Source: Fidelibacterota bacterium (lineage in GTDB: Bacteria > Fidelibacterota > UBA8477 > JABMPR01). Taken from it: DNA of 57,380 bases. Numbering within the stretch: position 1 is the stretch's first letter; each line of letters begins with the position of its first letter. The notes under the pieces were generated by a model. It did not search any database, was not told where the DNA came from, and saw nothing but the letters and a program-made list of their open reading frames with translations. The stretch lies in the NCBI GenBank assembly GCA_018673925.1, contig JABHBL010000003.1, forward strand, positions 1-57,380, written 5' to 3'. Positions 3,086-23,200 of this stretch are shown in pieces. Both the position numbers and the translations under genes were made by a program.

Positions 3086-4882
3086 CTAATCGTGACAGTC
3101 ATCACAACAATCGTCATCTTCTTCAGAATCTCCCAGACCCTCATAGAGATTCTCCAACATGCCTCTCGGACCAATTCTGAATAGCGAACCAGCAAAAAGC
3201 ATCAATAAGATACTGCCTGCCAGAAGATTAATCCATGAGTGATCATCACTTATTTCAGCTCCGGCTCCCACATGGGCTGAATCGCCCATGATAAAATTGA
3301 CGCCAAACCCAATGACAATGGTTAAGCCAATAATCACGAGTGGAAAAATAATTGCAACCCGCCCGCCATGGAGTTTTTTCATCACCCCGAGGGTGGTAAT
3401 ATTTGTGGCAGGTCCAGTAATCAGAAAGGCGAGTACAGCTCCAGCAGATACTCCATTCAGCAGCATGACAGCAGCGATGGGTGTTGCTCCAGTCGCACAA
3501 ACATACAGGGGCATCCCAATGAGAGCCATGATGAGGATATCAACACCATAAGGAAGCGAGCTCCAATCGAGCTTGCCCAGGAAGGGGTCTGTAATGGCTG
3601 CAATGATGAGACCCATAAGAACCCAGGGACCAAGATGATCGATCATTTCTTTATTAAGGGTAGACCAGAAGCGCTTCCAGGGATTGACTGTTGTTTTCAG
3701 TTTTTCCGGCTCAATCACAGGGATTGACAATGCCTGTTTTGCAGGTACAATCAGATCCATGATATACCCAACAAGCCAGGCAATCAAAGCAGCTGCAACC
3801 AAACGTGCCACAGTCATCTTCCAACCCAGGAGAGGTATGGAAATCATGATAGCATCGATGCCCAATTCAGGGGTGGCGATTAAAAATGCGGTTCCGGCAC
3901 CAACAGATACTCCTCTTCTGACGAGACTATGGTAAAGCGGGACAACCCCACATGAACAGATGGGTAGCGGAAGTCCAAAGAGCATCCCCTTCCCAACTCT
4001 AATGGCTCTGTTTTTTGAGTGAAGCCAATTGATTCCAGCTTCAGGAATAAAATTTTGGATGGAGGAGGCAATTAAAAAACCCAATAACAAAGCGGGTGCA
4101 CTCTCAAAAAAGAGGGAGAGGGTAAGGTTGGCAGTTGATCCAATTGAATGGGCATGTGGTAATTCGTGACCAAGCGGTAAAGCATACAAAAGACCAGCCC
4201 CGACAAATGCACCGAGAGCCGAAGGTAAGGCATTTTTTGATCTGGAATGTTTGTGCTCATGTTCATGTTCCTCTGAAGCAACGCCATGAATGTGGCGATG
4301 AAAGAGCACATGCAGGAGTGATCCAGTTACCAATGCCTGAAAATATGTAATGTAGGTTGAATGTGCCCCTGGAAATTCAGCAGTTCCCAGTGTAAAACCT
4401 GCAGCAGTTGCCAGGCTCATCAATACAAGGACACCCGCAATGACTTTTATATTGCTGAGCGGTTTTAAGGCCCACCATATCAGCAACCCGACAGGCAGAC
4501 GATGTAAGATGACTGCATACGCCAAGACCTGACCAGATCCATGGTCTCTAGAAGCCTGTGACACAGCGATGCCATCCAGGAGCGTATGCACCAGAATACC
4601 GCTAAAGGCCAGGACAAGCACACCACTATGGGTTGCTCTTTCATAGTTGTGAAAAGCACGTTCTGCGAAATAGGGTAACAAAGCCCCTAATACGACCATG
4701 AGGAGTGCCATTCCCCCGATTTCGACCACAGCTTCAGGCAAGAGATGGACGACGGCAATACCGCCAATGGAGACTAGGATGAATCCATCCAGGAATCGAT
4801 TGATGCCTGGTTGTTGCTCAAAGATCTTTGCCAGGAATGGACCTAGAAGCAGTGCCCCTATTGCAAGAACAAGCAAGGTCAC
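3086..4882 (-). CDS. Fused ZIP-like and ArsP/DUF318-like metal permease
   Basis: 598 residues, rich in membrane segments. Residues 1 to about 190 resemble ZIP metal transporters (HLLPEAVVEIGG, then HTLLDGIAVSQ). A His-rich loop follows at about 203-213 (EEHEHEHKH). From about residue 235 the protein is a DUF318/ArsP-type permease with the hallmark CSCGVVPLYHSL and TPELGIDA, and a second GATPIA/GPATN half. The tail DSEEDDDCCDDCHD looks like a soluble metal-binding site. Efflux of Cu, Zn or a related metal is an inference from the family (SO_0444-like permeases). GTG start overlaps the lgt stop by 4 bases, so the two are translationally coupled. Confidence 0.8.
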   Translation of the reverse strand: MTLLVLAIGALLLGPFLAKIFEQQPGINRFLDGFILVSIGGIAVVHLLPEAVVEIGGMALLMVVLGALLPYFAERAFHNYERATHSGVLVLAFSGILVHTLLDGIAVSQASRDHGSGQVLAYAVILHRLPVGLLIWWALKPLSNIKVIAGVLVLMSLATAAGFTLGTAEFPGAHSTYITYFQALVTGSLLHVLFHRHIHGVASEEHEHEHKHSRSKNALPSALGAFVGAGLLYALPLGHELPHAHSIGSTANLTLSLFFESAPALLLGFLIASSIQNFIPEAGINWLHSKNRAIRVGKGMLFGLPLPICSCGVVPLYHSLVRRGVSVGAGTAFLIATPELGIDAIMISIPLLGWKMTVARLVAAALIAWLVGYIMDLIVPAKQALSIPVIEPEKLKTTVNPWKRFWSTLNKEMIDHLGPWVLMGLIIAAITDPFLGKLDWSSLPYGVDILIMALIGMPLYVCATGATPIAAVMLLNGVSAGAVLAFLITGPATNITTLGVMKKLHGGRVAIIFPLVIIGLTIVIGFGVNFIMGDSAHVGAGAEISDDHSWINLLAGSILLMLFAGSLFRIGPRGMLENLYEGLGDSEEDDDCCDDCHD

Positions 4883-9496: not shown

Positions 9497-10705
9497 TTAA
9501 CTATCAAGCAAACTCTCCAGACGCCATGTCATTTCTCTGACAAAGTCCTTGTCTGGATCAAATCCCACAATCTTATACCGGATTTTTCCTTGTGGTCCTA
9601 TTATAAACAGACTTGGGATACCTTCCACCCCAAATTTTGTAGCTGTATCTCCTGCATAAGCAATTGGAAAAGTGAATTTCATTTCATCAATATAGGGCTG
9701 AACCTTTTGTTTATCCTGGTCTGTGGATGCTGCTACAAACACAACGCGAGGGTCATCTTTGTAGAGATCATAGAATGCCTGAAACTCAGGCAATTCTCGG
9801 CGACAGGGATTGCACCAGGTAGCCCAGAAGTCAAAGAAGACCACTTTACCAAGCATATTGGTATTGTTTAATGATCGGCCATTAAAATCCGTCACTTGAA
9901 ATTCTGGAGCATCGATATTAAAAACTTCTGAGAGTACTTCTTCTTTGCGTCGTTCATCAAGACTGGTGTGGAGATCACTCATGAAATCCTGAGAATCTTT
10001 ATTAGGATTAAGTTTAGTGTAAATCTCCACCACTTTTTGGTTGATCAGAGCCTTGCCAGGTGACAGTTGCAGTGCTGCTACATAGTCTTCCAGGGCTGCT
10101 GCCAAATTTTCTTGAGTTTCATAAATGAGGCCACGGCGCAGCAAAGTTTCGGGTTGTTCCATGTACTCAAGAGCAATACCATAAGCTTCAAGGGCTTTTT
10201 CTGTCTCATCTTGTTTCTCATAAATATTGGCTTGAGTATCGAAGATCATCGCTCCCAACTCATCTTGCCACTGCAATCCTTCTTCCTCTTCCCTAAATTT
10301 CTCTATGGTATATTCCATCACAGCAGGAGCTTCGTTAAAAAGCAGCATCTGATCGGACATTACCCAGGCCAATCGATTACCAAAGGCTATCTGATCAGTA
10401 ACCTCAAGGGCACCATTTTCAGGGTAGTTTTTCAATAGATCAAAGATTTTGACAAAACGGGTTTCATCGCGTTCCATGATAGCGCGTTCTGCGGAGCGCA
10501 CCATTGCCATACCCGCGGCATATTCTTCAGGATAATTTTTGCTCAACTCATAGGTGAGGTCCATCCAGACATCATATTCCAGTTCTTGACCTACTGTATC
10601 AACCAAAACCTGAAATCTTTCAGGTGATACTTCTGCTTCTTTCTCACAAAACGTCAACATCATGGTTAGCCCGATTATGAACACCAAAAACAAACTTTTT
10701 TTCAT
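9497..10705 (-). CDS. Lipoprotein with TPR-like helices and a TlpA/ResA thioredoxin domain
   Basis: 402 residues. Lipoprotein signal peptide with lipobox LTFC (Cys20). The middle (about 140-240) has TPR-like helical repeats (ALEAYGIALEYMEQPETLLRRG). The C-terminal 140 residues are a TlpA/ResA-type thioredoxin fold with FFDFWATWCNPCRREL; the active site is CNPC and the cis-Pro region is GVEGIPSLFI. It should act as a thiol-disulfide oxidoreductase in the periplasm, anchored to a membrane. ATG start with GAGGATATA upstream. The barrel gene follows. Confidence 0.88.
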   Translation of the reverse strand: MKKSLFLVFIIGLTMMLTFCEKEAEVSPERFQVLVDTVGQELEYDVWMDLTYELSKNYPEEYAAGMAMVRSAERAIMERDETRFVKIFDLLKNYPENGALEVTDQIAFGNRLAWVMSDQMLLFNEAPAVMEYTIEKFREEEEGLQWQDELGAMIFDTQANIYEKQDETEKALEAYGIALEYMEQPETLLRRGLIYETQENLAAALEDYVAALQLSPGKALINQKVVEIYTKLNPNKDSQDFMSDLHTSLDERRKEEVLSEVFNIDAPEFQVTDFNGRSLNNTNMLGKVVFFDFWATWCNPCRRELPEFQAFYDLYKDDPRVVFVAASTDQDKQKVQPYIDEMKFTFPIAYAGDTATKFGVEGIPSLFIIGPQGKIRYKIVGFDPDKDFVREMTWRLESLLDS

Positions 10706-13069: not shown

Positions 13070-14557
13070 TTAGTCACCTATATACTGATCTATCGCTCCA
13101 ACAATATTAAAAATTTCTTCCTTATCAATACGGTAGGATGTATTCACATAATCATTCTCTGAATTCAGCTCATAAGCTTGGCCATATGTTTCACCGTTTT
13201 GAATAATATCCTTCAGGGCAGCGATGAGCAGAGCTACATCCTCCAGGGTTGAATACAGACCAAAACTGGCTCTCACCATCCCGGCTTTGCGCATAAACTC
13301 TGGGGACATATTACCAAAATCGATTTCCCCAAATTCAGATTCGAGATCGTCAGACATCATTTCTTTGACATAGGGGTGGGCGCAAAAGCATTGATTTCTC
13401 ACAGCAATATTGAAGTAATCATTTAATTGTGCAGCCACCAGACCATGGTCAATTCCTCTTATGTTGAAGGAAATCGAAGCAGCGCGGGGACAAGCTTTCA
13501 GGTCTGTGCCACCATAGACTAAAATCTCTGGCATTTTAGCCATCTCCCTGATGGCAACTTCCAGCACTTCGTCTTCCTCTTCCATGAGCGTTTGCATACC
13601 GATACGATCAAGAATTTCTATAGTGGTTGCCAGGGCTATAGCACCTGGAATATTGGGAGTGCCCGCTTCTTCCCGATCCGGAAAGGTATCTTTAACCTGA
13701 TACCGATCTTCCAGTACGCGATCTACCATGCCCCCACCAACTTCTTCAGGCTCAATGGCCAACAGGTGGTCCTTACGAGCTATCACAACCCCAGGTGATC
13801 CTGGCGTGTAGGTCTTATGTCCAGAGAAAACGAGGGCATCAATACAGGCTTCTGGATCATCTGGATAAAACATTTTTGTAGGGAGATGAGCAACGCTTTG
13901 GGCACCATCCACCATGAGAAGAGCTCCGTACTTGTGGGCAAGGCGGGCGATATCATGGATGGGATTAATTATCCCGGTTACATTACTCACTGCAGTAATA
14001 GAGACATAACTAACCTTACCCGCACCATCTTGAAGTGCTTGTTCCAATTTGGGTAGACTGATACACATCTGATTCTCATCCAGACCATCAACAGGTACAT
14101 GATATACATTCTGCATATGCTTGCGATGGGGCAAATCATTGGAGTGATGTTCCATGATAGAGATGATTGCTGTATCTTTTTCTGGGTGTACATCTCGAAA
14201 GACACGGGCCATCCTATTGATACCCCCAGTGGTTCCAGAGCCGGTAAAAAAGCAGGTATAAATCTCCGGATCTGCACCCACAAAGCTGAGTATCCTCTCA
14301 TGTGCCCAATCGTAGGCAGCAGTGGAAATATGGGCGGAATGGTGGAGTTTACTATGGGTATTGGAATAATGACTCATGAATTCAGCAGTAATGTGAGCTG
14401 CAGGTCTAAGCATGAGTGAGCTGGCAGTTGAGTCCAGATATATTCGTCTGGTTTTGTCCCCGCTTACCGTCTCATAGGTGGTATCTAAACCAATAAAGTC
14501 TGAACGAATTTTTTCGAGAAGTGCTTTGCCGGTTAAAGATTTTCCAGATGATCTCAT
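13070..14557 (-). CDS. Class V aminotransferase, SufS/cysteine-desulfurase-like
   Basis: 495 residues, longer than SufS (about 406). PLP fold type I. The Schiff-base Lys is in FSGHKTYTPGSPG, the PLP phosphate region is TGSGTTGGINR, and MVDGAQSVAH carries the PLP-contacting Asp. C390 and C392 lie in NQCFCAHPYV, at the site where SufS-type enzymes carry their catalytic Cys (GCHCAHP). Group II desulfurases also act as selenocysteine lyases, but nothing here proves that. It is convergent with the amidotransferase-like gene (3 bases apart), so the two stops share one short gap with no terminator. Confidence 0.82.
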   Translation of the reverse strand: MRSSGKSLTGKALLEKIRSDFIGLDTTYETVSGDKTRRIYLDSTASSLMLRPAAHITAEFMSHYSNTHSKLHHSAHISTAAYDWAHERILSFVGADPEIYTCFFTGSGTTGGINRMARVFRDVHPEKDTAIISIMEHHSNDLPHRKHMQNVYHVPVDGLDENQMCISLPKLEQALQDGAGKVSYVSITAVSNVTGIINPIHDIARLAHKYGALLMVDGAQSVAHLPTKMFYPDDPEACIDALVFSGHKTYTPGSPGVVIARKDHLLAIEPEEVGGGMVDRVLEDRYQVKDTFPDREEAGTPNIPGAIALATTIEILDRIGMQTLMEEEDEVLEVAIREMAKMPEILVYGGTDLKACPRAASISFNIRGIDHGLVAAQLNDYFNIAVRNQCFCAHPYVKEMMSDDLESEFGEIDFGNMSPEFMRKAGMVRASFGLYSTLEDVALLIAALKDIIQNGETYGQAYELNSENDYVNTSYRIDKEEIFNIVGAIDQYIGD

Positions 14558-14661
14558 GCTAAAACTCCAAATTGATTTCTTATGAATTGACTTGGAAAGT
14601 CATGCTAGAATATACTCAGGTCTATGCCTGAAAAAATATTTCTGTCTTGATGATTCGTTCC

Positions 14662-14697
14662 TAAAAAGCAGGAGGCCATCCAAATGGATGGCCCCCT
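14662..14697 (-). terminator. Rho-independent terminator after selenoprotein candidate 1
   Basis: Minus strand: GGGGGCCATCC, loop ATTT, GGATGGCCTCC, then TGCTTTTTAG. The same core (GGCCATCC/GGATGGCC) recurs in the terminator at 17478-17513, so it was duplicated with the gene. Confidence 0.85.
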
Positions 14698-14721
14698 ATT
14701 ACTCTATTTATAGTGAGATGT

Positions 14722-17316
14722 CTATTTAAGCAACATCATTTTTACTATTTGCTCTGAACCAGCAGCGTTTATGCGAGCAAAATAGATACCAGTTTCAACC
14801 GATTGGGCTGAAGCATTGGTACCATTCCACTGATAGCGGTATGTGCCAGGCACAAGTTCCGATTGTACAAGGCTGTTCACCTCTTGACCGAGAATATCAT
14901 AAATCTTCAGAGTCACGAAACTATTTTCAGGTATACCAAACTCAATGGTGGTAGTAGGATTGAAAGGGTTGGGATAATTCTGCTTCAATTGCAGCACCTC
15001 AGGCATTTCAATTCCATCAACGCTCAGGAACTGGCCAGTATAGAACCCGGTCCTCTGATAATTTCCCCGGGCTGTCGACCAGGTCGGACCAAGATCGGAG
15101 AGCATCTTAAGATTAATAACAGTCAAGTCATTATTTGTCCCAACGATGATCTCCAGGGTACCATCCTGACTTAAATCAGCCACGCTGGGAGTTCCCTGGA
15201 CAGGTCCTGACATGGTGAGTGGAAATAGATCCACGGACATGCCATCATGATGGAAAGCGTATAATTCTCCAGAGTTTGAACCAACGATGATCTCAGGCTC
15301 CCCAACACCATCAAGATTTGCAACAACTGGTGAACTATAACAGGCTCCACCTAAACTCTGGGGCCATCCAGCTATAGTATTTCCCTGATAATCAAGAACA
15401 TTGACAAGTCCAGCGAGGGTTGTGTAAATAATTTCCATAAACCCGTCACCATCAAAGTCATACACCGCGGCAGTGGTACGAATACTGGCAGAGGAAAGTC
15501 TTTGACTCCAAAGCACAGTTCCATCACTATCTATTGCATAGAAATAGCCACCATCTTGACCAGCTAAAATTTCCAGTGAACCGTCCCCATCTATGTCAGC
15601 AATGACAGGAGGAGAGGCAACATTAGAAACCAAATCTACTGGGAATCCACTTAACAATTCGCCATTAAGATTGTAAGCAAAAATGCTATCACTCCAGGTA
15701 CCCAGGACAAAATCTTTGCTTCCATCTCCATCAATATCGGCGATGGAAACGCCACCGGACATTCGTCCGCCATCAATAATGACAGGATAATTATCCAGCG
15801 CGGTACCGTCATGATGCACAGCTAATAAATCGTAACCATAACCACCGGCGACTATTTCAAGGTCTCCGTCGTTATCAAGGTCATCTAGAGCAGGTGTACC
15901 CATGAGATAGCTAGCCGCTTCTGCGATTGCGGCTCCTGATCCATCGTGTTGGACGACATGAATTTTGCGATCACGGGAAGTCACGACAACCTCCAGATCA
16001 CCATCATTGTCGATATCAGCAACAGCTGGAGCACCAATAATCACATTCCCAACGGTATATGGAAAACCGGCCAATTCATTGCCTGCAAGTGTGAAGGCAT
16101 GGACAAGACTATCTGAACCACCTACGACTACTTCATTGGTACCATCACCATCAAGATCCACAATTGCGTTTCCACCCAATATGGGTTGGGAAACAGCTAC
16201 TGGAAAATTGGCTTGAAATAGGTCAATACTCACAGTAAGAGGTAAAATGACCTCGTATGGATCTTCAGTGCTTTGATTGGCAACCATTCTCAAATTAAAT
16301 TCAAAATCAGAAATATCTGGTGCATCTTCTGAAATTGAAAATGCAAATTTGTCGTTGAAATTTGTGACAATATCGCAGGACACAATCATATTGTAAAATC
16401 CCACACTATCCGTAATGGTAACATACGGACTTGCCGTAGACAGGTAACCAGTTACATCGAAAGCGCTGACAAAATCACAGCTGTTTGTTAATGTCACAGT
16501 GTATTCAGCAGATTCACCGGGATTCAGAGTGCCATCACCATCATCATCAATAATCGCAACATTCGTGTTGGAGGCAACCAGATTGGGGATGTTGAGAGGT
16601 GCAATATCACCCACATAACCAGAAGCAGCATTTAGAACGACATGATTCGCTGCCTGGACAAAGACGACGAGTCTGCAGTTGTCAGTAATCCAACTGGGAT
16701 CGGTAGCAAAATCTACAACTTCGACATGTTGAACACCAGCTTCCAGAGATACTGTTGTACCTGAGGAACTGGGAAACATATCCCGCATGACATTTTCATG
16801 ATCCGGATAGCCATTTGATCCCATGTAATAGAGCCCATCCTCAACCATAACTACTTGAAGGGTATAGTCTCCACTCACTCCAGTCTCAGGGTCTAGGGTC
16901 ACTAATACACTTCCGATGCCACTTTGGTAATCAAAATTACCCGCTAGTCCAATTGCAAGCGGAGCTGTGGTAGCCGCATTTGCAGGAATCACACTCTGCC
17001 AGGAACTGGTATTAATTCCATCTACCTGGATGTCGGGCACGGCGTTGACCCCATAATAATTTCGCCTAGCTTCACTATCTGGCGTATTGGCGTTGTAATA
17101 TGGGTCTGTTCCCGGCCAACTTACGTGATAAGAAATTTGTGTGAACATCCCTGGATTGTTTTGTTGGAACACGTCCAACTGAGCCCCTGTTGGGCCACAG
17201 CCAGGTCAGCCAGCGTTGGTAAAATATTCTGTTAAAACCAATCGTTCGGCAGTATGTCCCAATGCGAATAGCGCAAGCAGTATCATCACTACGCTTGCGG
17301 ATCTGTTTTTGATCAT
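14722..17316 (-). CDS. Secreted thioredoxin-like/FG-GAP protein with in-frame TGA (candidate selenoprotein 1)
   Basis: 864 residues if the TGA at 17206-17208 (codon 37) is read as an amino acid. ATG 17314-17316 has GGAGAG upstream and opens a signal peptide (MIKNRSASVVMILLALFALG). Next comes EYFTNAG-U-PGCGP, a U-x-x-C redox motif where Omp28/thioredoxin-like relatives have CxxC. The fold is supported by the YHVSWPGTDP and GVNAVPDIQVDG (cis-Pro) segments. About 200-310 is CARDB-like, 330-740 an FG-GAP/VCBS propeller (repeated DIDNDGDLE), and 770-864 a sorting tail (QNYPNPFNPTTT...MMLLK). A caller that stops at TGA would begin at TTG 17178 and lose the signal peptide. Paralogous to 17532-20153. 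No selA/B/D lies in the window. Confidence 0.85.
17179..17208 (-). promoter_or_regulatory. In-frame TGA with downstream SECIS-like stem-loop (gene 1)
   Basis: Directly after TGA (17206-17208) and five spacer bases, the mRNA can fold as CUG, bulged U, GGCCC, loop AACAG, GGGCU, CAG (17179-17200): eight pairs and one bulged U. A bulged U in the upper stem recalls the E. coli fdhF SECIS bound by SelB, but the apical GU is absent. Folding was done by eye. Confidence 0.5.
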
Positions 17317-17376
17317 AATCTCTCCAAGTTGAATTGTATTATATGCCTAAGTAAAGCATCGCATAACATAGAAAAA

Positions 17377-17408
17377 CGATGAGCTTTGTGCCACCACAAA
17401 GCTCATCG
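17377..17408. promoter_or_regulatory. Leader hairpin 61 bases before candidate selenoprotein 1
   Basis: A perfect 14-bp inverted repeat, CGATGAGCTTTGTG and CACAAAGCTCATCG, with a 4-base loop. On the minus strand it runs into TTTTT. A related hairpin lies at the same distance before the paralog (20217-20244). It could be a leader attenuator or a second terminator of gene 2. Nothing else is evident in 17317-17531 apart from the terminator at 17478. Confidence 0.6.
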
Positions 17409-17477
17409 TAAAAGAAACGTTAGTAAAATTTAATTTTATGATCTAAAAATTCTGAAATTTTGACCTATGATTGGTAC

Positions 17478-17513
17478 AAAAAAGAAGGCCATCCAATGGA
17501 TGGCCTTCTTTTC
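17478..17513 (-). terminator. Rho-independent terminator after selenoprotein candidate 2
   Basis: Minus strand: AAAAGAAGGCCATCC, loop AT, GGATGGCCTTCTTTTTT. Perfect stem and T-run, 18 bases after the stop of the 17532 gene. It separates transcription of the two paralogs. Confidence 0.92.
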
Positions 17514-17531
17514 TAATGAGTGTGAGCTATC

Positions 17532-20153
17532 TTATTTTAGCAGCATCATTTTGATTAGTTGTTCTTCTCCACCCGTTTGGATCCGAGCAAAATACATACC
17601 TGCGGCAACTTGATTACCTGCATGATCTACACCTTTCCAAACTAAAGAATAATTTCCAGCTGAAAGATGTCCATCAATCAAGCGAGTCACTTCATTTCCC
17701 AATATGTCAAATACTGTTATATCTGTGACTGCGCTATTGGGAATCCCAAACTCAATGGTTGTGCTGGGATTAAAGGGGTTTGGATAATTCTGCTTTAACG
17801 TTAGGAATTCAGGCAGAATAGATTGTGAATATGAACTCGCAATGGGATTGGGGAAATAACCTGTCCGCTGGTAATCCCCACGGGATGTGTACCAAAAAGG
17901 ACCAGCTTCACTTATTGCAGGCATATCTACAACACTGAGACCTGCGTCCGTTCCGACAACAATTTCCACATTTCCATCGAGATCCAAATCTGCCACAGTG
18001 GCAGCACAATGAACTCTGTCCCCCTGTAACATTGGATAATTAGGTAGCAGAGTTCCATCTATATGAAATGCATATAGAAGATCAGAGTCATCCCCTAATA
18101 TAATTTCAGGAACATCATCTCCATCGATATCGGCAATAACGGGTTGGCTGTAGCAGGTGGTTGCCAGAGTTTGAGGCCAACCTTCCAGCATATTCCCAGC
18201 ATGATCCAGAACACTTACTCGACCATCGGGCAATATATAGACTGTCTCCATGAGACCATCTTGATCATAATCGAAAACGGAATGACCCGTCAAAACAGGT
18301 ATACCAACCAGTTGATGATTCCACAGTATGGCACCCGTGTTTGACAGGGCATAGATCATTCCACCCAATTGACCGGCAATGATTTCCAGGGTTCCATCTC
18401 CTGTCAAATCTGTAACGACAGGTGCGGTTTTGATATCAGCAGATAAATCAACTGGGAATCCAGTCAGACTATTACCACTTGCATCATAAGCATGTATAAA
18501 GTCACCAGTGGTGCCGACGATAATATCATTAAATCCATCACCGTTCAAGTCGGCAATAGCTGCTGCACCTTCCATCCTTTCACCATCTAATATTTTGGGA
18601 TAACCTGTTAGGGCTGTTCCATCATGATGAACGGCGGTGATGTCATAGGCAGTACCGGTAGTAACGATTTCTAAATCACCATCATTGTCCATGTCATCTA
18701 CGGCAGGGGTTCCCAGGATTAGCCCAGCAGCCTGGGCAATCAATTCACCACTTCCATTGGACTCTACCACGTAAATACTACCACCAAGAGTAGTAAATAC
18801 GATTTCCAGGTCACCATCATTGTCCACATCTCCGACAGCAGGTGCGGATGTAATTTTGCCATTTGAGACATAGGGAAAGCCTGACAATTCAGATCCTGAC
18901 ACAGTAATGACATGAAGGAGGCTATCAATTCCGCCAAATATTACTTCTTGAGTTCCATCACCATCAAGGTCTAGCACGGCACTTCCGCTCACGACCCCAC
19001 CCGTATAGCTAATGGGAAAATTGTTCTGGAACATGTCGATTGTCACGGTAACAATCTGATTCGTCTCATATGGAGTCTCAGAATCCTGATTGGCAACAAG
19101 ACGTAAATTGAATTCAAATTCACTGACTCGCGGTGCTTCTGCTGATACAGTGAATGTAAATTTATCGATTTCATTACTTGTTGTACTGCATGGAAGAAGT
19201 GAACTAAACACACCCACGCTATCACTTATGGTAATAAGCGGGTCTGTGCTGGATAAATAACCAGTAATTCCAGTTGCTTCAAGCCAGCCACAATTGTTCT
19301 CGATTTCGATATAATAATTTGCTGATTCACCTGGATTAAGTTTGTTGTCAGCGTTGTCATCAAACAGGTCGATATTTGTCGATAAGGTCTGGATATATGG
19401 AATGTTGATTGGGGTCAACTCAACCAAATCAAATGTAGCTGTATTCAGAATTGATTGATCAGCGGCCTCAACAAACACGACCAGGCGACAGTTGTCAATC
19501 ACAAAATCCTGAGGTATTTGGACACTGATAGTTTCAGTCATTTCCACACCGGCTACCAAATTAACAGGTGTACCAGCTGGAGTGGGGAATATATGACGCA
19601 TGACTGCTTCATGATTTGGGTAGCCATTTGATCCCATGAAGTAGATACCATCCTCAACCAGAACCACCTGGATTGTATAGTCTCCATCTGCTCCGGCCTC
19701 AGGAGTAAGGGTTACATCAATGTAGCCTTCTCCCTGATAGTTCATGTCACCAGTGGCTGAAATCGCGAGAGGTGATGTTATAGCTGCCTGTGCGAGGACA
19801 GCTGCACCCCACTGGGAAACATCCTGATTCTCGTTCAGTGTGGCATGATCACCCCCATCGACAACGAAATATGGAACCCAATTAAAGCCATAATGTGCCC
19901 TACGGGCATTCCCATCGGCACTGTTATAGCTATAAAATGGATCGCTACCAGGCCATGACATGTGGTAGTGAATAGATGTAAATGCTTCCTGGTTATTATG
20001 TTGGAACACGTCCAACTCTGCCCCTGCGGGGCCACAGCCAGGTCAGCCGGCGTTGGTAAAATACTCTGCCAGGACCAATCTTTCAGCTGAATGACCCAGG
20101 GCAAATAATGCCAGCAGGACCATCAATACTATTGTCAGTTTGTTTTTGATCAT
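17532..20153 (-). CDS. Secreted thioredoxin-like/FG-GAP protein with in-frame TGA (candidate selenoprotein 2)
   Basis: 873 residues if TGA 20043-20045 (codon 37) is decoded. ATG 20151-20153 follows GGAGATATT and opens a signal peptide (MIKNKLTIVLMVLLALFALG). Then comes EYFTNAG-U-PGCGPAGAELD, the same U-x-x-C site as its paralog. The Trx-like part continues with YHMSWPGSDP and FNWVPYFVVDGG. A CARDB-like module (about 200-320), FG-GAP repeats (about 340-750) and a sorting tail (QNYPNPFNPSTT...MMLLK) follow. The reading frame, the TGA position and the flanking residues match in both copies although much of the protein has diverged, which argues against a chance mutation. It lies downstream of the RND operon, after its own leader hairpin. 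Confidence 0.85.
20016..20045 (-). promoter_or_regulatory. In-frame TGA with downstream stem-loop (gene 2)
   Basis: After TGA (20043-20045), GCCCC, loop GCA, GGGGC forms a strong 5-bp stem (20020-20032). The flanking CUGU and AGAG can add weak pairs. The stem overlaps the position of the gene 1 structure, but the details differ. As there, no apical GU is seen. Folding was done by eye. Confidence 0.45.
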
Positions 20154-20216
20154 AATATCTCCGTATTTTTTTGAAACTGATTGATCTACAAAACTATTGA
20201 TTAAGATATATAAGCA

Positions 20217-20244
20217 AAGGGCTTTGTGCTATGACAAAGCCCTT
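20217..20244. promoter_or_regulatory. Leader hairpin 63 bases before candidate selenoprotein 2 (or RND operon terminator)
   Basis: An 11-bp stem, AAGGGCTTTGT and ACAAAGCCCTT, with a 6-base loop. It shares the core GCTTTGT/ACAAAGC with 17377-17408, while the outer pairs differ but still match. It also lies 43 bases after the acrB-like stop and could end that operon, although its T-run is poor. Confidence 0.55.
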
Positions 20245-20287
20245 CGTAAAACAATTTTAATAAATTAAAGCAAGCTTGAAAAATCGA

Positions 20288-23200
20288 CTAAGCTGCTCGC
20301 TCCAGTTTTTTTCTCTCTGCACGACTCTCAATTATGGAATACAAGACGGGAACCACGATGAGAGTCAGGAAGGAGGATACAGCCAGACCAAAGATTAAAC
20401 TGACAGCCAGAGGTCTCCAATATTCGGCTCCACCTGCCAGGTTCAAACTTAAAGGTATCATACCTGCAAGCGTCGTGACTGTGGTGAGTATGATGGGTCG
20501 CAGTCTGTTCCTACCAGCCTTAATTAGGGCTTCGCGGACACGCATTCCTTTCTTGCGCAAATCGTTGACATAAGCGATAAGTACAATGGCGTCGTTCACC
20601 ACTACTCCCATGAGTGCTACCACACCGAAAAAGGCCATTATTCCAAATGGAACTCGCGTGATCATGAGGCCAAGGATTACTCCAATAAATGATAATGGAA
20701 TAGCCAAGCCAATAATCAAAGGCTGTTTGATGGACTGGAATTGAGCACTGAGGATGATCATAATGACAATGAAACCAATCATCATTGCTCTACCGAGACT
20801 TGCAAACGATTCACTGGCTTCATCTTCAATTCCACCATACTCCACTGACACACCATTGGGAACTGCTAATTGAGCCAGGAAGGGATCCATGCGTCTCCTG
20901 ATATCTGTAGCATCAACACCCTTTGCCATATCACATGATACTGAGATATTGCGCTTAAAATCCTGATGTTTTATCAGAGTTTCACTGCTACCCAACTCCA
21001 ATGAAGCCACATTTTCAAAAGGAATCATCTGACCCATTTGATTCATAATATTCAAATTCCGAATAGCATCTACAGCATCGTCACCATCGGTCTCCAAACG
21101 AACCACAACTGGAATATCCTCAAGACCATCAGAGTAGGTCGTGGCCTCCAGACCAATCATAGCTGCTGCCAGGGTGTTGCTTACTTCCTGACTGGATAGT
21201 CCATAGCTTGCAGCTCGATCATGATCAACGACAGCTTGAAATTCGGTTCGACGAACACCCAAACTGGATTCGACATTCAAAGCTCCCTCTACAGTGGCAA
21301 GATCTCGTTTTACCTGTTCGGCAACAAAGCCGATGGCGTCCAGATCATCACCACTAACATCAATGATCACATTGCTGGCAATGGGTGGTCCTTCAACGAT
21401 TGTTTGAAGCACAATTTCAACACCTGGTATACGCGAGAGTTCTGCATCCATGAGTGCCATGAGATCATCAACAGAAATATCACGATCTTCTGCATCAACC
21501 AGATCCACATTTATCTGGGCAATTTCGGCACCTTTACCACCTCCTTGAGCCAATCGGACATTCTGTACACCACTCTCCCCAACTGTGGAGACAATTCTAT
21601 CCACTTCTTCAAACCCAATCAGATATGCTTCAATTTCCTTGACTACTGCATCGGTATAGTCCAATTGACTACCTGCAGGGGTGTTGATATCCAGAATAAT
21701 CCTGGGTTTTGCAACCTTGGGGAAAATTTCCAACTTGACAAGTTTGGTATCGCTGACAGCAGAAATTCCCACTGCTGCAATGGACATAAAGAAAACGACC
21801 GTGATTCCTAGAATAACAATGAGTCGGTTATACAAAGCCCAACCGACCATTCTTGTATATAAACGCTTACCGATCCATTCGCCACTCAGCATGCCAGCAC
21901 GTTTCGTGACCATCATCAACTTGGAGGCCAGAACTGGTATAAGAAAGTGATCAGCTAGAAATGCTCCTACCAACGTGAATATCACGACTTTAGGAATCAC
22001 AGATAAAAACTGCCCCATGGTACCGGTCATATATATTATGGGTGCAAAAGCCACCATGGTGGTCATGACAGATGTCATAATAGGTACACCCACTTCATCA
22101 AGGGCTTGTATGGCCGCGGCCTTGCGATCCAATCCTTCTTCCATATGCCGATAGGTGGATTCGGCGACAATAATGGCACCATCCACAACAATACCCAATA
22201 CGATAATGAGACCAAACATGGAGATACCAGTCCTTGCCAGATCAAAGACCGCCATCAAAGGGAAGGAAGACATGAGTGCAAAGGGCAGTGCAATGGATAC
22301 GATCAGGGCATTCTTGAAACCGATTCCAGCAAACAGCACAATAATGACAAACAGGATTCCCCAGGCTGCGTTTTGATTCAGCTGACTATTCTGTTTTTCG
22401 ATATCTGTGGCCTGTCGGGCAGTATAGGCATATTCCATTCCCTGAGGGAATTTTGCAGCGAGTTTGTCTACAACTGCTTCGATCTGCTCGGTGGCTTCAA
22501 CAATGTGAGCACCGGTGCGTTTTGAGATAAGTAGTGTCACACTATTTTGCTGCTGATATCTTGAATAACTTGATGGTATTTCAAATCCATCGGTAACCGT
22601 ACCAACATCGCGGATACGTTTGACATTTCCGGATTGATCCACACCAAGAATGGTGTTTTCTATATCATCGATTTCAGAATATTTACCTACAGTTCGAACA
22701 AAAATATCCTGTCCCTTCAGCTTGACGGTTCCTCCTGGAAAGTTCATATTGCTCTTTCTCAGAGCCATCAATACCTGTGGGATACTAAGATTATTTGCCA
22801 GGAGTAGATTTGGGTCAATTTCGATGGCAATTTCACGCTCTTCACCACCAAACATTTCAACCTGATTCACTCCAGATACTCTGGTAAGTTGATCCTTGAT
22901 GAGATCAGCTTGAATACGCAGATCATGGGGTGAGAAATCTCCATAGATATTGAGAATGCTAATGGGAGTATCTGCAAAATCGATATCCGTCACGGTCACA
23001 TTATCTATTTCTTCTCTCAGTTCAGGAATGGCCTCGTTTACTTTCTCTTTGAGATCATCAATACTTATATCCAGATCAGCTTCGGGAGAAAATTTGATGG
23101 TAATAAAACCAACGTTCTGCATGGCATAACCAGTAATATCGTCAACATCCTGTAATTGAGCCAGTTTCTCTTCAATAGGTTTGATAATCTCAGTTTCCAC

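Follow-up and report, generated by a model that had tools for sequence, protein, structure and literature searches.

Predicted selenocysteine in two tandem, putatively surface-anchored Omp28-related proteins of a Fidelibacterota bacterium

In a 57,380-nt stretch of a Fidelibacterota draft genome (contig JABHBL010000003.1 of assembly GCA_018673925.1; hereafter, the window), two adjacent genes on the minus strand, G1 and G2, carry an in-frame TGA as codon 37. We consider it very probable that this codon encodes selenocysteine (Sec), forming the first residue of a UxxC motif in a predicted thioredoxin-like domain of proteins that, judging from their sequence, would be exported and anchored at the cell surface. 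The initial annotation had proposed a Sec residue here, and this reading is now strongly supported, as none of the three contrary outcomes that it had named beforehand was observed: the genome encodes the Sec machinery (selA, selB, selD and tRNA-Sec), homologues carry either Sec or Cys at the respective column (41 and 15 of 56 loci), and an assembly error is very unlikely given TGA copies in 17 genomes.

An in-frame TGA and a downstream hairpin in two tandem genes

G2 (17532-20153, minus strand) comprises 873 codons from an ATG at 20153 to a TAA stop codon. Based on its read-through translation, Pfam and NCBIfam matches and an AlphaFold model, its predicted layout consists of a Sec-containing thioredoxin-like part, an Omp28 domain, an FG-GAP propeller and a type IX sorting tail. 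G1 (14722-17316, minus strand; 864 codons, ATG at 17316, stop TAG) is a tandem paralogue of the same architecture, showing 59% identity to G2 across the first 240 residues. In the read-through translations, codon 37 (predicted Sec; 20043-20045 in G2 and 17206-17208 in G1, both minus strand) is the single internal TGA of each gene and the frame is otherwise open to the end; the shared context FTNAG-U-PGCGP(T/A)GA is exactly as first described. Open reading frames (ORFs) started from a TTG 3' of the TGA would have 818 and 827 amino acids. A GGAG-type stretch resembling a ribosome-binding site precedes the ATG of both genes, and by inspection residues 1-23 form a putative N-terminal export signal in G2 (20085-20153, minus strand; charged start, hydrophobic core, GHSAE) as well as in G1 (17248-17316, minus strand). 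The signal-like N-terminus of G2 reads MIKNKLTIVLMVLLALFALGHSAE.

The window represents contig 49 of a 3.41-Mb draft genome, in which selA, selB, selD and tRNA-Sec all score above their family cut-offs. Here, selA and selB are located within 5 kb on one contig, and the anticodon of the tRNA-Sec is TCA. The selD gene of this genome itself has an in-frame TGA within KAAGUAGK, presumably at the position where SelD of other bacteria has Sec. Across 23 genomes of the order, selA was matched in 22 and scored above the cut-off in 21.

These 23 genomes were also searched for relatives in all six frames, which yielded 47 places spread over 20 genomes. One TGA is contained in 28 of these, from 17 genomes, and none in the other 19. 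Of the TGA places, 26 loci were used, leaving aside one place without a locus (G010:C208:16291) and a 74-residue fragment (G009:C80:36586). The TGA occupies the identical column in 26/26 loci and in 25/25 rows of the codon alignment, and a Cys follows three residues later in all 25 aligned loci. One locus (L035 of genome G014) was excluded from the protein alignments, the tree and the synonymous-rate analysis owing to an extra in-frame TAG about 57 codons past the TGA, which might reflect decay, an error or another recoding event. At the 19 places lacking the TGA, the open frames span 327-522 codons; five of these places (L025, L042-L044, L053) were used for the column and hairpin comparisons, and all five have CxxC. 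Five short Sec forms (L050, L051, L038, L040, L041) were observed in the window's order, which extend for about 270 codons past the TGA and show a dockerin-like end (named by eye) but neither propeller nor sorting tail.

In a wider set of 56 loci, the column is Sec in 41 and Cys in 15. It was placed by the TGA in 26 loci, by alignment in 14 and by the motif itself in 16, so that for the latter the outcome of either Sec or Cys is partly a consequence of the placement; two alignment-placed loci (L109, L111) initially read Asn and were shifted three residues into the motif. This set draws on 11 loci examined from other families of the phylum and on forms outside it, where Sec was found in TA06, Zixibacteria and Eisenbacteria, and Cys in WOR-3, Cloacimonetes, Zixibacteria, Eisenbacteria and others; L100 was omitted as it coincides with L053. 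Among the Sec-type relatives outside Neomarinimicrobiota (L102, L103, L110, L112, L114), at least L103 has a sorting-tail-like end, as judged by eye. A tree of 55 loci implies at least four changes between Sec and Cys, only one of which is forced by well-supported branches.

For the 14 codons 5' of the TGA, we obtained a crude pN/pS of 0.26, taken merely as a sign of conservation. Crude pS was lowest among nine segments at codons +1 to +8 (0.268), whereas the value at +9 to +15 (0.343) was not under that of several later segments. As this second value is unremarkable and the surely coding downstream segments have a crude pN/pS of 0.49-1.64, we did not rely on the synonymous dip; a "noncoding control" for the rates, which compared unaligned leaders, was likewise not used.

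Downstream of the TGA, a hairpin with a 6-bp stem and a 5-nt loop is present at nt 30-46 (T of TGA = 1) in 26/26 loci. Based on geometry and covariation, we predict it to be the bacterial selenocysteine insertion sequence (bSECIS), which in G2 reads GUUGGA-CGUGU-UCCAAC (20000-20016, minus strand) and has identical letters in G1 (17163-17179, minus strand). All 144 stem cells pair (24 distinct sequences), and covarying pairs are 30:46 (GC, CG or UA), 31:45 (UA or CG) and 34:42 (GC or AU). Changes on both sides occur in 22 cells, compared to a mean of 6.9 after shuffling, with 0/500 shuffles as high; when the partner is slid by 1-3 columns, pairing falls to 17-64%. Position 2 of the loop is an invariant G (26/26). 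As outlined in the section on these elements of a review (PMC13188914), bSECIS hairpins have a loop of 3-9 nt, a stem of 4-16 bp, a G within the first two loop positions and a distance of 16-37 nt from UGA to loop; the 5-nt loop, the 6-bp stem and the loop start 32 nt past the UGA fall within these ranges. Across these genes, hairpins of equal shape begin at 228 of 46,913 positions, the 26 included, and in a scan from -120 to +300 no offset except +30 was common to more than four loci. In the equivalent 60 nt, the 6-bp hairpin was not found in any of the five tested Cys homologues. The 54-nt region reaches folding energies of -15.5 to -20.1 kcal/mol in 26/26 loci.

A second small G+C-rich hairpin is located between the TGA and the predicted bSECIS (20020-20032 in G2, 17183-17195 in G1, both minus strand). 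At these positions (nt 14-26), 92.5% of cells pair and one pair is doubly changed, giving this element modest, and weaker, support.

Relationship to known Omp28-related proteins

The redox domain itself is of a kind already known. The passages on GOS_C in two publications (PMC2398784; PMC13188914) describe an Omp28-related selenoprotein with a thioredoxin-like fold and a UxxC motif, reported by Zhang and Gladyshev in 2008 from 74 sequences in ocean reads; the NCBIfam model NF045500 (Omp28_seleno) corresponds to the GOS_C of the review. The window proteins share with it the Omp28-related, thioredoxin-like UxxC domain, and two loci close to it in the window's phylum (L072, L077) likewise carry a tail for the type IX secretion system (T9SS). 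It is a less likely, though not negligible, possibility that the pair are ordinary members of this family which add nothing to it: the N-terminal domains are similar, the U falls near the equal profile column, and the window proteins obtain 36.8 and 22.1 bits against NF045500, with 45-73 bits for three of the short Sec forms from the window's order. However, the curated cut-off of this model is 200 bits, far above the scores of the window proteins, whereas two loci from a different family of the phylum come close with 171-176 bits. Phylogenetically, the group of the window (25 Sec rows and one Cys; support 93/92) is separate from the ten-row clade of these two loci (100/100), although the branches between them are weak. 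Furthermore, the window's long group bears an FG-GAP propeller and has its hairpin at nt 30, whereas a different hairpin is found at nt 13 in 6/10 Sec loci of the neighbouring clade. We conclude that the window pair is a variant distinct by architecture and SECIS position. The claim of a new selenoprotein family thus has to be narrowed, as it fails for the redox domain, known since 2008 as GOS_C/NF045500, and seems to hold for the propeller-bearing sister group with its own SECIS position.

The Omp28 model (PF11551) matched the window proteins with 59.9 and 63.8 bits (gathering cut-off 34.9), and the type A sorting domain TIGR04183 with 34.8 and 36.3 bits (cut-off 23), while DUF1223 (PF06764) remained below its cut-off of 30.7 with 25.1 bits in one protein only (P0002). 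The first description had placed the TGA at the CxxC of an Omp28/thioredoxin-like domain; the thioredoxin-like part of this assignment stands, but the Pfam Omp28 match (residues 85-235 in P0001) excludes the UxxC, which belongs to the preceding thioredoxin-like part. The nearest fold is that of the surface thioredoxin HBP35 of Porphyromonas gingivalis (PDB 5y1a), at whose C48/C51 the modelled redox pair of the window proteins lies. In contrast to the window proteins, HBP35 has Cys instead of Sec, and its 344 residues leave no room for a propeller; thioredoxin activity and hemin binding have been reported for it (PMC2907840). Similarly, the solved chains of Omp28 (PF11551; PDB 2r2c) and DUF1223 (PF06764; PDB 2axo), with 270 and 183 residues, have no room for a propeller. 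Eight-bladed propellers such as the designed Cake8 and BamB resemble the propeller part only, a common scaffold that is little informative on function.

In a search of 5.8 billion proteins, 7,996 candidates were scored and 388 relatives obtained, 120 of which were listed. None of these 120 covers residue 37, either because they start past the site or because they miss the domain. The 46 listed relatives with the window's architecture start at query residues 44-185, most often at 65 (21/46), 49 (8) or 47 (6). One listed relative is named "VCBS repeat-containing protein" and another "FG-GAP-like repeat-containing protein", and the named relatives with 85-91% identity in the domain are Candidatus Neomarinimicrobiota metagenome-assembled genomes. 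In the two literature listings aimed at these features, neither FG-GAP repeats nor type IX export turned up for any selenoprotein, the papers listed being unrelated. The searches for selenoproteins together with Omp28 by name and for cell-surface selenoproteins in Neomarinimicrobi gave nothing, and that for NF045500 led to the review only; a word search of the whole text of the review PMC13188914 did not find Omp28, FG-GAP or type IX. What seems to be new is the sister group with propeller and own SECIS position, including a selenoprotein predicted as type IX cargo.

Alternative readings of the TGA and points against selenocysteine

Gene callers have set the starts of all 46 same-architecture relatives downstream of the TGA, which would fit translation beginning at the TTG (codon 47) or at a later ATG, with the TGA as a true stop and the upstream frame as a relic or short leader. 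We regard this as very unlikely. Ahead of the TGA, both window genes possess a GGAG-type ribosome site and an N-terminus resembling a signal peptide, and the protein sequence there is conserved (the pN/pS of 0.26 mentioned above); the TGA itself is unchanging in 26 loci. Starting downstream would also deprive a protein ending in an export domain of its export signal, together with the entire UxxC, and it leaves the covarying hairpin without explanation.

Even less probable is a decoding of the TGA as Trp or Cys by a code change or by suppression, even though any residue at this position would keep the frame open. Among 39 ORFs of the window picked from 58, TAA terminates 18, TAG 17 and TGA four; this agrees with the original observation that TGA is a genuine stop elsewhere, including at 4879, 25874 and 44980. 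In addition, the genome has a tRNA-Sec with the anticodon TCA along with selA, selB and selD, and the column is Cys in the 15 non-Sec loci, with the hairpin not found in the five tested. An assembly error or decaying genes, for which the further in-frame TAG in one relative (L035 of G014) could be cited, can practically be dismissed in view of TGA copies in 17/23 genomes, long open frames in relatives and two otherwise intact paralogues.

Several observations weigh against the Sec reading or parts of it. Six of the 23 genomes contain no TGA copy despite having selA (in G018, this is a below-cut-off fragment only), and one draft genome with a completeness of 86% (G003) has TGA copies without any selA match, which is probably an assembly gap. 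With regard to the hairpin, the Rfam search of 14000-21000 returned no SECIS and nothing at E up to 1. Single-sequence folds of 54 nt contain the hairpin in 23/26 loci, the exceptions being G1 (L024), L035 and L041, and the minimum-energy fold of this stretch in G1 is another structure. Taken alone, the hairpin reaches the bSECIS energy limit of -7.5 kcal/mol or lower in 7/26 loci and is weaker in the remaining 19. Two of five covariation measures were unremarkable, namely double-change pairs, equalled or exceeded in 50/500 shuffles, and further pair types (495/500), and looser stems (at least 5 bp, loops of 3-7) are scattered in 9/15 Cys loci. Finally, the full-length AlphaFold model has low confidence around residue 37 (blocks of 55-62), and both surface location and redox activity are deduced from homology.

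Predicted fold, genomic neighbourhood and proposed role

Propellers filled the list of structure matches of the full-length model, and the N-terminal domain was therefore folded separately. Modelled alone, it gave a good model (91.3), in which the UxxC sits in a predicted thioredoxin-like, Omp28-related fold; below rank 1, the Foldseek results were mostly unrelated beta-rich chains. As to export, the T9SS was assessed by two components, and both are present in the genome: SprA with 580.5 bits (cut-off 200) and PorU with 679 bits (cut-off 420).

Eighteen stretches were fetched for the analysis of the neighbourhood. Fifteen of them, from 13 genomes, contain the locus, and three (L125, L131, L132) are without this neighbourhood. 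Both flanks are visible in 11/15, with a resistance-nodulation-division (RND) efflux set on one side and a SufS-like pyridoxal phosphate (PLP) enzyme on the other; the other four (L127-L130) are cut by a contig end. In the window, the efflux set comprises members of the TetR, OEP, HlyD and AcrB families. One copy of the Sec gene is found at the locus in 7/13 genomes, whereas the other six have a second, complete or partial, copy. Two stretches from a single genome (L117 and L130, both G010) show a third copy near a second SufS-like neighbourhood; the estimated contamination of this genome is 5%, and it perhaps represents two strains.

The SufS/CsdB-like PLP enzyme of the window (13070-14557, minus strand) scores 246.2 bits against TIGR01979, below the cut-off of 475.1. 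It has a candidate active-site Cys in RNQCFCA, adjoins the Sec gene in the stretches that include that flank, and one of its PDB relatives is named selenocysteine lyase. Also encoded in this conserved stretch is a lipoprotein-like protein (9497-10705, minus strand) whose thioredoxin domain (WCNPC) is of the ResA/TlpA type. Their neighbourhood makes the ResA-like protein and the SufS-like enzyme candidate partners of G1 and G2.

Further hairpins (17376-17409 and 20215-20246, minus strand) precede both ATGs by about 60-95 nt; they have the inner GCTTTGT..ACAAAGC in common and outer stems that differ yet are complementary. Comparable leader hairpins occur in seven relatives (L026-L032) and may act as terminator, attenuator or operator. 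With such a hairpin between G1 and G2, the two genes may be transcribed separately.

Judged from their sequence, G1 and G2 are most likely surface-anchored selenol/disulfide oxidoreductases. In the mechanism we propose, the UGA would be read by SelB and Sec-tRNA(UCA), owing to the hairpin with its loop 32 nt downstream. Guided by its signal peptide, the protein would pass the Sec translocon, and its C-terminal domain would hand it to the type IX system (SprA, PorU) for delivery to the surface. There, the Sec37/Cys40 selenol/thiol pair could perform disulfide exchange (or peroxide reduction), while the eight-bladed propeller might hold a partner or substrate.

More broadly, we find it reasonably likely that Neomarinimicrobiota, and probably other phyla too, show selenium chemistry outside the cell by means of a type IX-exported class of selenoproteins. 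The window pair would represent its propeller branch, a Sec-x-x-Cys surface oxidoreductase on an eight-bladed scaffold that binds partner or substrate. The active end of this family goes missing in the protein database, as all 46 listed relatives of the same architecture begin past the Sec codon; the 26 covarying hairpins could be used for a curated model, enabling annotation pipelines to correct these gene calls. If our interpretation is true, the redox site would be distant from the reductants of the cytoplasm, by which such sites are normally recharged, raising the question of its electron donor, and selenocysteine would act on the outer surface of bacteria in a large uncultured phylum.

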